Positions 45,665-64,000 of a DNA stretch of 64,000 nt are shown here, in pieces. Made by a program: the position numbers and the translations under genes. Position 1 is the first letter of the stretch. Each line of letters begins with the position of its first letter. Below the pieces are notes generated by a model. That model did no database searches. It saw nothing but the letters and a program-made list of their open reading frames with translations, and had not been told where the DNA came from. The stretch comes from Dromaius novaehollandiae (Eukaryota; Chordata; Aves; Casuariiformes; Dromaiidae), in NCBI RefSeq assembly GCF_036370855.1, contig NC_088101.1, positions 68,323,559 to 68,387,558 of the forward strand, in the 5' to 3' direction.

Positions 45665-47191
<1,527 letters not shown>

Positions 47192-59666: not shown

Positions 59667-61544
59667 AGTAGAGACTGGAGATGAAGAGCAGAAGTAGAGT
59701 AAAAGGAGTAGAAAAAAGGCTATCTACTGAAGTGTACAAATACATCAGGGATTAGCAAGACAAAAGAAAAAATCAAACCAGGATTTCATAGTGCAAACTT
59801 CATCTGAACAACACTGACTCCCTCAGAGGGAGGAGAAGGGGACAATTCAAGAATCATGGTGAAGTGTCAAGGAAATTAAATTTTAAGCCTTAATTTTTGC
59901 TCTCTGAAAGGATGAAACAAATTCTTAAACTATGTGAAGTTTTGTGGGCCATTGATGAGCAGCCTTGACAGGCTGAAGGCTCTCAAAGAAAATGCTGGAG
60001 CAATTTGAGAAACAAATCATTGGGATCATAGTGAACAACTTGTTTCAGATGGAGTTTCCATGTTCTATTGTTGGGAACATTCCTACTACGTTTACCTGGT
60101 TTAGGACAGGATGAAAGGCACTTTGACCTGTATGGAACAGAGCTGTCAGTTATGAAAATGCTTCTGGATATCGTTGTCCTTTCAGAGGGAGAAAAGAGGT
60201 TGGCCCATGTGAAAACGCTGATATTTTATTACTACACTCAACTGTGTTTCATGGTATCATTCTGTTTGGAGACTGATTTGAAGAAATTTTTTTTTTTCAA
60301 CAAGTAGAATGGCCAAAGATTGAATGCTTTTTCCTTAAAATGTAGGAAGCAGGTCAGCAGGAGTGAGGAACTTCAGTGGGCCTATGGACAGAGAAATAGG
60401 TCGCAGAAAACTGTCCCTCGTCTTTTCCATCGATTGTTATGGATTGTTACCACTGTGCTGGGCACTGCTCAACAAATCACAGGCATGCACTTGGGACCTC
60501 TTGGGAAGAGAGGCAAAAATAAAGTCTTTTTAAGGAAAAACATATAATACACATATTCTTATATGAAAGAAAATCTTTACTCCCTCCCCCCCAAAATTAG
60601 TATGTACGCTATTTGCTTTCCATTTATAGTTAATCTGCTTTTCGTGACATTAATGTTAACTGATGAGGAAAATGTTTCCTCTTGTTGGTGATTATGCTTT
60701 AGGTGTTGGTTATACAATCCGTGCAAGGAATACTCAAGGAACCTGGTTACTTGGCAAACGCTTTAAAATCATTCTATACAGTGTAACTTCACTGTCAAAT
60801 GTAATTTAGAAACAGTTTATCTGCTGCTACTTTTACCTTTTCTTATGATCCTAAAGTGTTCCCTGTTAACCTGTGGCATTTTTGCAAAATGGCATTGTCA
60901 TTACTATTATTTTAATAGGAGAAGATGATTGTGAATGCCCCGAAATCGGCAGGAGGGAGGTCGCACGGCCGGCGCCACTTCTGTAATTACTTACACGCTT
61001 AAAAAAAGGATCCAACTTCGCCCCCGTTCCTTGAAAACCGGAGCGTGGATGCGAACTGCCCCCGAAAGGAAGACCGGAGGGGAGGAGAGCAGGACACGCG
61101 GGACCGCACCTGACTGGTGCTCTCCCGCGGGCGGCCGTTGGCGGCGGCCGTTGGCGGCGGCGCCCCCGCCCCCCGCCAGGCGCCCGCCCTCGGCGGCCCG
61201 AGCGGGCTGCGCTGTGGGGCCGGAGCCGCGCCCGCCGCGCCGCCCGGCGCCCCCGCTCCTTCACCCACCTCTCGTCGGCCGCGGCTCGCAGCCTGGACGC
61301 TGAGCCCGAACTTTTCGCCAGCGGGCCGGGCCGGGCCGGCGGCCGGGGAGGGCCGGCGGCGGCCGCGCATCGCCACTTGCCCGCTCCTTCCCTGCCCGCC
61401 GCGGTGAGGTCGTAGGTCCTGCCGGCGCCCCCTTGTTTGCTTGCGCAGACTGCTTCGCCGAGGAGGAGACGGGGGTGGGTGGGGATGGAGAGGTCGCCGG
61501 GCGCTGGTGATTTAGCACCGGGGTCGGTAGCAGAGCCCGCGCCC

Positions 61545-61586
61545 GGCGGCGGCGGCGGCGGCAGCAGCGGCGGCGGCAGCAGCGGA
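61545..61586. repeat. GGC/AGC trinucleotide repeat
   Basis: About 42 bp of CGG/GGC units interrupted by CAGCAG, 280-320 bp upstream of the candidate start codon and so in the probable promoter or 5' UTR. Potentially length-variable. Confidence 0.9.
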
Positions 61587-61597
61587 GCGAGCGCGCA

Positions 61598-61603
61598 CAC
61601 GTG
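61598..61603. promoter_or_regulatory. Canonical E-box CACGTG
   Basis: CACACGTGACTC in the CpG island, 262 bp upstream of the candidate ATG. It fits binding by bHLH-zip factors (USF, MYC/MAX, TFE families). Occupancy is not known. Confidence 0.5.
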
Positions 61604-61784
61604 ACTCCGGCGGCGGCTCCTCGGTGCCGCTACAAACAGGCGCACACGCACGCACACACCGCGCACACACAGACACACGCGCTCCCTCCCCGCTCCTCCA
61701 GCCAGCCTCTCTCCCGCTCGCACGCACCGTGCAAGCCGCCGCCAGGGCAAAGCTGTCGGCGCACTCCGCGGCGGCAGCACCCGG

Positions 61785-61807
61785 AGCAGCAGCAGCAGCG
61801 GCGGCGG
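61785..61807. repeat. AGC/GGC trinucleotide repeat
   Basis: Five AGC units followed by three GGC units, just upstream of the candidate start codon. If the in-frame upstream reading frame were translated it would encode a Gln/Arg-rich stretch. Confidence 0.85.
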
Positions 61808-61864
61808 TCGCGCAAGAGCAAGAGTTTGCTGCGTGCCTTCCCGAAGCGGTTTTGCGCCCAGAGG

Positions 61865-61951
61865 ATGGCCGGCTGCGGGCTGTCAGAAGATGCTTTCTTC
61901 TCTTCCTTCTTTTACAACTACACCTCCTCCTGGGAGACCTCCTACAACCAG
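61865..61951 (+). CDS. Candidate first coding exon, possibly a distal PPARGC1A exon
   Basis: The start codon sits in a strong Kozak context (A at -3, G at +4). The frame gives 29 codons beginning MAGCGLSEDAFFSSFFYNY and ending SWETSYNQ. It runs without a break to a good donor CAG|GTATGG in phase 0. The peptide is Ser/Phe/Tyr-rich with acidic residues, unlike the Arg/Pro/Ala translations typical of GC-rich islands. PPARGC1A is the next gene downstream of DHX15 on the same strand in human. It has brain-type first exons several hundred kb upstream, and as I recall its exon 1-2 junction is phase 0. This is inference: no PPARGC1A exon is in the window. The frame stays open upstream to an ATG at 61601. 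An unrelated gene or a non-coding transcript is possible. Confidence 0.5.
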
Positions 61952-62828
61952 GTATGGGGGCCGGTGCTGCGAGGCGCGCTCGCCCCCTCTGCGCCCGCCG
62001 GGCTCCTCGGGGGAGGCAGAGGTGGTGCCGGCGTGTGCGGGAAGGGGGCTCTAAGTAAGAGGCTGCTCAGCGTGGCTTTAAGAGGGTGGAGGAAGTCGGT
62101 CGAGGAAAGAAAAGAAAGAAAAGAGCCTTTTTCATACGTGTCTCTTTTAGCCCCTTTCCTTCCCACCGCCTTCGCCCCTCCTGGGAGGAAGAGGAGCGGG
62201 ATGAGGAAGAGGCGAGGGAGGGGGCTTTGGGAGCGGTAGTGCGGGGGGCTCCGCGTTACCCCGGACAACTCGGAGCGCGGCGAGGCAACTCGAGCGAAGC
62301 CTCCCCGCGGCTCCGCTCGCCGCCTGCCCAGCGCGCTGGGGGCCCGCGGCGGCCAGACCGGCTCGGCGGGGCGGCCTGTGAGTGCCAGCCCTGACTCAGA
62401 AGGACACCCCCACCCTTACCCTTTCCCTCAGAAATGGCTGAATATGCATTTAACGTAGTAATCTCGGAGCCTGCCTCCGTGGCTACAGTCCGGTTTATCC
62501 TTCTCTCCCTCCGATTCCCTCTTCCCCCCTCCACGTACTTAACTTTGATGACTGTGCAATGCGGAGCAGGCACCCAGGCAACCCCGGCTCCTGCTGCCGG
62601 GCAGCCCTGCCTCGCCGGCGCCTCGGCTCGGGCCGTGGGGGCGGCTGGCGAGATGGGTAGGAGAGGCAGTGGGGAAGAGTGAAGAAAAAAGCAGAAATCA
62701 CGTCTGAGATGTAGAGTGCTATTCTGGGAGCCTCCGAAACGTCTTTAATTAAATAACTGCTGTAGTCTGCTGCCCCCGCTGCTTGTTTGGTGAAAGTCTA
62801 CAGGCAACTGTCATTTATAAACTACATC

Positions 62829-62829
<1 letters not shown>

Positions 62830-62876
<47 letters not shown>
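62830..62876. repeat. (GT)n microsatellite, about 23 units
   Basis: 47 bp of uninterrupted GT dinucleotide followed by GAGTGTGAGTG. It lies 0.9 kb after the candidate exon; likely polymorphic and able to form Z-DNA. Confidence 0.97.
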
Positions 62877-62878
<2 letters not shown>

Positions 62879-63751
62879 TGTGAGTGAAAGGGGGGTGTCT
62901 GGTGCCGGCGAGACGGGAAAAGTTGGGCAGCGGGTGGAAGGGGCTGCGGCGGGGGGCGGCGGGGGGGGGCCGTGTCTGTCAGGTGGCGGCGGAGTCGGGG
63001 AGCCTCGCATCTCCTCGCCTCCCGCTCCCTCCCTGCTGGGGGCAGAGCGCCGCTGAGCTCATGGAAAAACGTGCCGCCACAGTCCTGGTTTCCAGGAAAC
63101 TGAAATCCTCAAACTAGCAGTTGCCAGTTTAAGGTTACACCTCATAGCGAGGGATCACGAAACCGCACGCTGCTCTCTGCCTGCGGGAGTTAATAGTACA
63201 GAGCGGCGAGGAGCAGGGCTCCTCCTCCGGCAGCAGGCAGCCGCGGCGCGGGCAGGCGGCGGCGCGGCCGCGGAGTTCGGGTGCTGCCCCCGCCCCGGGG
63301 CCCCGGGGCCCCCCACGGCCGCGTCTGCCCTTGAGGCAGCCCAGTCATGGCTGGTGCCCCGGGTGCGAGCCGATGTGCATCCGGCCCATCTCGGAAGGCA
63401 CCTCGCGGGGGGCAAGCCTGCCTGCTGGCTTTGCTCCCCGGCCTGGGGAGGAGCGTGCCTAAGAGGGAACAAGCGAGCCCCGCTTGTGCCGACGCGCCCG
63501 GGGGCGGGGGGGAGGGGGGGTTAACGCAGAGAGCAGACATACGCGTACCACTCCAGGCGCGGGGCGCGCTGCCGCTCGGTCCCCGAGCGGGCCGAAGCCG
63601 CTCCGCCGTGGCGGATGCATCGGCCGGTGCCGCCCCCGGCCCGGGCCCCGCGCGCCGTGGCAAGGCGAGGCGCTCGCGGCGGGTCCCTGACGGCCACCGC
63701 CAGCCCCGGCCGGCAGCGCAGCGCAGGGCGCCGCGGCGGCAGGCTGCCGGG

Positions 63752-63787
63752 CCTCCCTGCCGGCCTCGCTGCCGGCCTCCCTGCCTG
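63752..63787. repeat. 12-bp tandem repeat, 3 copies
   Basis: CCTCCCTGCCGG, CCTCGCTGCCGG, CCTCCCTGCCTG: three near-identical units in the CpG island. Confidence 0.85.
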
Positions 63788-64000
63788 CCGCCGCGCGGCG
63801 TCCCGCCGCCCCGGGGCGGCCGCGGCGCAAGTTTGCCGCGCGGTCGCCGAGACGAGCCGCGGCTGGGGGTGGCGGAGCCTGCGCTCGTGCGCACACGCGG
63901 GGACGCGCGCCCCTCCGCGCGCAGTGCCGCTGCCTCGCTGCGAGCAGGGACCGTGGAGTGTTACCCTGTTAAATACCAGTCCCCAGAAGTCACAGAAATT

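Follow-up and report, generated by a model that had tools for sequence, protein, structure and literature searches.

In both human and mouse, a far-upstream promoter of PPARGC1A is well known to give rise to CNS-specific transcripts. In human, the distal promoter is placed ~586 kb from the reference promoter, and exon B1 lies in a CpG island. A conserved region around B1 is described as responding to Foxa1 in reporter assays. The human PPARGC1A exon B1 is said to have been described by Soyal in 2012.

The closest described counterpart of the exon that we report here is the mouse SSR exon (Lozoya 2021; PMC8548212), which, going by coordinates, appears to match human exon B1: it is given as 448 bp in length with an ATG at 362, and it contributes 29 new residues that are joined to exon 2. 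The mouse junction peptide, NYGSSWETPSNQC, is the antibody epitope of that study; its B1-encoded part is NYGSSWETPSNQ, which is followed by the C of exon 2 (PMC8548212). Mouse SSR is also described as lying in a CpG island that carries neuronal H3K9ac and Pol II marks. The commonest mouse form is the combination SSR-SINE-exon 2, in which the B1 frame meets a TGA inside the SINE (B4) exon, and translation of this form is thought to begin at MDEGYF in the SINE exon (PMC8548212). As for human, one paper calls B1 ‘noncoding’, and another describes the B1B4 and B1B5 transcripts as having no upstream ORF, which suggests that human B1 is without the start codon that we describe below. On the authority of Wang et al. 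2016, Lozoya 2021 (PMC8548212) further describes both SSR and SINE as conserved in chickens and sticklebacks; Wang et al. themselves name human and mouse in their text and refer to a supplementary figure for different species.

The distal exon and its neighbours

Our analysis centres on a window, the whole stretch of 64,000 nucleotides under study (C4:68323559-68387558), in an assembly of 1.47 Gb and 271 contigs. The first-pass annotation of this DNA had proposed that a 29-codon open reading frame, with a good start context and running into a phase-0 splice donor, is a brain-type first exon of PPARGC1A, situated in a large CpG island ~14 kb beyond DHX15 on the same strand, with PPARGC1A as the next gene in that direction. 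The upstream neighbour is indeed DHX15, the exons of which occupy 4180-47191 (+) by our reading of the ORF list and of the matches; the left boundary is approximate, and the first exon may lie outside the window. In the segment 9580-9750 the best of 56 matched sequences are DHX15 chains (PDB), another DHX15 exon encodes HA2_N and HA2_C domains, and 47078-47188 encodes the C-terminal 37 residues, which match the DHX15 PDB chains to their last residue; the stop codon is therefore placed at 47189-47191. From this stop, the identity of the gene being confirmed by two exons, the distance to the ATG of the distal exon is 14.7 kb on the same strand.

The coding part of the distal exon occupies 61865-61951 (+): its 29 codons translate as MAGCGLSEDAFFSSFFYNYTSSWETSYNQ and are followed by GTATGG. 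The ATG lies in the context AGAGGATGG, with A at -3 and G at +4, and the donor (61952-61957, +), which comes directly after CAG, agrees with the consensus at +1, +2, +3 and +5 and departs from it at +4 and +6. This donor is in phase 0, the same phase as the acceptor of PPARGC1A exon 2: the coding end of the distal exon reads …TCCTACAACCAG, and its exon 2 partner across the predicted junction reads TGTGCTGCTCTGG. A genome-wide search with the 29-residue peptide (E up to 10) returned a single match in the whole assembly, the distal exon itself, and a Pfam scan of the same peptide returned no family at E up to 1.

On the downstream side, the N-terminus of human PGC-1α gave six matches in the assembly: four of these are exon 2 and, behind it, three pieces of later exons, all on the + strand of C4; the two weaker ones, on C15, are read as PPARGC1B. 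The exon 2 match covers C4:68701417-68701617 (+), with its acceptor, ttcttgcag, directly before TGTGCTGCTCTGGTT (TGT GCT GCT CTG GTT) in phase 0. The canonical exon 1, at C4:68696280 (+), was located as the sole genome match of a degenerate pattern; it reads MAWDMCNQDSVWSDIE, followed by GTGAGC, and it lies outside any CpG island in this genome. From the distal exon it is 311 kb to the canonical ATG and 316 kb to exon 2, and all three share one contig and the + strand. Two other features of the interval were noted in passing. A small, separate CpG island at C4:68670759-68671559, ~25 kb before canonical exon 1, overlaps an open frame that is the longest in the interval (271 residues from stop to stop, with a low-complexity look). 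At C4:68464883 (-) there is an open frame, FVSDPEEAT...FEDDTKLGGTVDMPEGRAAIQRD, that we liken to a fragment of a CR1 LINE reverse transcriptase of the avian type, typical of birds. This likeness would suggest a bird as the source of the DNA; the sauropsid origin given in the first-pass annotation is plausible.

Evidence that the distal exon corresponds to mammalian exon B1 was derived from two published mouse fragments. Firstly, the frame in the window ends in NYTSSWETSYNQ, which is identical to the mouse epitope NYGSSWETPSNQ at 9 of 12 residues; the next best match in six frames of the window reaches 6/12, as does the top match of the adjoining 200 kb. Secondly, the forward RT-PCR primer for mouse ‘Exon B1’, TACAACTACGGCTCCTCCTGG (PMC5011687), matches the window once, at 61913-61933, with 19 of 21 bases; none of 100 shuffled primers found a match at up to 3 mismatches. 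An in-frame identity of 9/12 against a next best of 6/12, together with the absence of matches among the primer shuffles, places the agreement with mouse exon B1 beyond chance. On this sequence comparison, which is limited to the two published mouse fragments, we regard the distal exon as established to be orthologous to PPARGC1A exon B1. Gene order, strand, phase, CpG island, the 29-codon length and the mouse B1 match speak together for the candidate, which we regard as supported.

Compared with the mammalian exon, the locus has in common a position far upstream of the canonical promoter, a CpG island, 29 codons (as in mouse) and a phase-0 junction. It differs in three respects: exon 2 is 316 kb away here versus 566.7 kb in mouse (PMC8548212); the B4/SINE partner exon of mammals was not found here (see below); and the frame is open here, whereas human B1 is described as non-coding.

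CpG island and presumed promoter

By a 500-bp criterion, the CpG island around the distal exon begins at about 60801, continues to the end of the window at 64000 and extends ~200 bp beyond it (about C4:68384359-68387759); the stretch C4:68323559-68627558, 304 kb in all, has no other. Across five 200-bp bins from 61000 to 61999, CpG observed/expected ranges from 0.83 to 1.11 and G+C from 0.64 to 0.82. If the 448-nt length of the mouse SSR exon is assumed, the 5' untranslated part of the distal exon would occupy 61504-61864 (+); a tandem repeat scan places a CGG-rich tract (61544-61585) and a CA/CG-rich tract (61636-61682) inside it. An E-box, CACGTGAC, is situated at 61598-61605, in this presumed 5' untranslated part or the core promoter, and we presume that it could serve TFEB/USF or HIF-type factors. 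The segment 60900-61864 contains 10 RCGTG (HIF1A-type) sites, a raw count to which we give no weight. Neither a strict FOXA motif nor one for ERRα was found in this segment, a point against our reading, since such sites are reported to be important for the mammalian promoter.

The same island has a second GC-rich peak at 63200-64000, with G+C of 0.73-0.85 in 200-bp bins. No coding sequence was recognised there; the peak is possibly another alternative start or an exon such as human B2. Also inside the island, at 62830-62886, is a GT microsatellite of ~28 imperfect copies, 0.9 kb downstream of the distal exon and in its first intron. A variable GT repeat upstream of the human start site is described as modulating promoter strength and the response to HIF1A (PMC7031416). 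The tract in this species was considered as its counterpart; as it lies ~0.9 kb downstream, not upstream, of the exon, we do not equate the two.

Partner exon and alternative readings of the frame

The main competitor to a coding first exon is that the 29-codon ORF serves chiefly as an upstream ORF: splicing through an intermediate exon would defer the start of the protein, and the peptide would be a translational brake. The mouse arrangement, with the SSR frame closed by TGA in the SINE exon of the commonest form, speaks for it, and the reported conservation of SINE itself in chickens and sticklebacks (Lozoya 2021; PMC8548212) points the same way. We looked for the coding end of B4, MDEGYF plus a donor. 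When up to 1 mismatch is allowed, the whole genome has 0 matches; the 200 kb that follow the window have none at up to 3 mismatches and a single, unconvincing one at 4; and a further 74 kb of the interval contains none at up to 4. Nor does MDEGYF, even with 1 substitution allowed, turn up in a six-frame translation of those first 200 kb. These searches cover 274 kb of the 316-kb intron at the higher mismatch levels and the other 40 kb (C4:68627559-68667558) through the genome-wide search only, and a strongly diverged B4 would escape them. That the B4 end was not found, either genome-wide at up to 1 mismatch or in 274 kb at up to 3, suggests direct splicing from B1 to exon 2. A second argument is that the frame is in phase with exon 2 both in mouse and in this species, a property for which a pure upstream ORF has no need. 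For these reasons we consider the upstream-ORF explanation to be unlikely, albeit the strongest of the alternatives. If B4 is indeed absent, B1 joined straight to exon 2 is suggested to be the natural product here.

A second alternative would assign the ORF to another gene, or to a non-coding RNA, running from the CpG island to an end within the 316-kb interval. It takes some encouragement from human brain, in which many sense-strand exon-like signals are described across the 0.5 Mb downstream of the distal promoter and are proposed to represent lncRNAs that may start from B1. We rate it as very improbable: within the 274 kb of the interval that we examined, the stop-to-stop frames of 130 residues or more (the longest being the one of 271, at C4:68670639) look like low-complexity sequence, repeats or chance, as judged on their first 90 residues, and the peptide agrees with the coding end of mouse exon B1. 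Finally, as many as 39 ORFs of 25 codons or more (counting both strands, with ATG, GTG or TTG as start) overlap these 3.1 kb of GC-rich DNA (60900-64000), and a 29-codon length is by itself within chance, but a chance ORF without a coding role is scarcely credible against the 9/12 in-frame match, the equal length and phase, and the primer match that 0 of 100 shuffles equalled.

Our preferred reading, that the distal exon is the sauropsid orthologue of PPARGC1A exon B1, driven by a far-upstream CNS promoter and spliced to exon 2, is in our estimation highly probable. Some of this was already in print: bearing in mind that Lozoya 2021 (PMC8548212) states conservation in chickens, the presence of SSR DNA in sauropsids is not new, and the proposal that the promoter predates the mammal-sauropsid split had been partly anticipated there. 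What the sequence comparison would add is the conservation of frame, phase and length, unless the supplementary figure of Wang et al. 2016 already has them. In the open-access literature that we searched, we found no paper that ties a brain-specific first exon of PPARGC1A to DHX15, and none that links exon B1 to PPARGC1B/PGC-1β; a search on an upstream exon in chicken likewise gave none. The mammalian papers that we consulted mostly treat B1 as a leader; because its frame is kept between mouse and a sauropsid, however, we argue that the 29-residue N-terminus is a real part of a protein.

Likeness to PGC-1β exon 1 and the predicted product

Another observation to emerge from this work is that the distal peptide resembles the start of PGC-1β. 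In this genome, PPARGC1B exon 1 is at C15:10667275-10667352 (-), in a GC-rich region 43 kb before its own exon 2, and reads MAEPAPDCSALLDEDLSSFVFNYLADSQ before GTAGGG; we take it to be the ordinary first exon of that gene and not a distal one. The two exons have in common their GC-rich surroundings, a similar length (28 vs 29 codons), a phase-0 donor after CAG, a homologous exon 2 and the pattern MA..C....(D/E)..SSF..NY....Q. A gapped alignment of the 28 with the 29 residues contains 12 identities; 22 of 50,000 shuffles were as good, and a second run gave 6/20,000 (global) and 31/20,000 (local), values to be read in the light of a short peptide and of a comparison that was picked after the likeness had been noticed. 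Against the start of human PGC-1β, 12 of 26 residues are identical (BLASTP E 3e-05, as a single comparison) and 0 of 20,000 shuffles did as well, in both global and local alignment. Furthermore, when the ATG-to-GT frames with 20-40 codons in 264 kb (2,165 on the two strands together) are ranked by their score against PGC-1β exon 1, the distal exon comes first, with 26, and the runner-up has 23. When the distal peptide was searched against the whole genome (E up to 10), only the self-match came back, and PPARGC1B exon 1 did not.

The canonical PPARGC1A exon 1 (16 residues) has in common with the distal exon a phase-0 donor and the same exon 2, and shows no clear similarity with either the distal peptide or exon 1 of PGC-1β. 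Compared with the latter, 18,726 of 50,000 shuffles were as good for the canonical exon of this species, and 6,003 of 20,000 for the human canonical peptide; its homology with PGC-1β exon 1 is therefore unsupported. Human canonical exon 1 compared with the human PGC-1β start gave 425/20,000 shuffles (global) and 9,505/20,000 (local), so the canonical exon may bear a weak resemblance to that start. The first introns of the α and β genes are both in phase 0, and their exons 2, of 180 nt (α) and 174 nt (β), encode proteins that align; nevertheless, intron position and phase do not discriminate between the two α first exons, because canonical exon 1 has the same junction. Taken on the peptide and shuffle comparisons, the chances that the distal exon and PGC-1β exon 1 are of shared origin appear to be about even.

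We envisage the distal exon operating as follows. The CpG-island promoter just beyond DHX15 would start transcription, most likely in neurons, and the 87 coding bases would be joined through their phase-0 donor to PPARGC1A exon 2 over the ~316-kb intron. In the predicted PGC-1α product, the place of the 16 canonical residues, MAWDMCNQDSVWSDIE, would be taken by 29 residues that are rich in aromatic side chains and include an acidic patch (…SEDAFFSSFFYNY…), directly before the activation region of exon 2. The outcome would be a PGC-1α with a PGC-1β-like N-terminus, and this new N-terminus may tune coactivation.

The likeness to PGC-1β also leads us to a broader hypothesis, one that could equally well prove right or wrong: that the first exon of the common ancestor of PGC-1α and PGC-1β survives in the distal exon and, as the regular first exon, in PPARGC1B; that canonical exon 1 of PPARGC1A is a later replacement; and that the SINE-derived B4 was added in mammals, making B1 mostly a non-coding leader, while sauropsids would still make the ancestral form, with its PGC-1β-like N-terminus, in neurons. 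If the link with PGC-1β is true, the brain isoform of PGC-1α would be a retained old form, the N-terminus of which could be studied by analogy with PGC-1β, and species such as this one would offer, if the outcome of the B4 search is right, a natural system that has the B1 form without the B4 exon.
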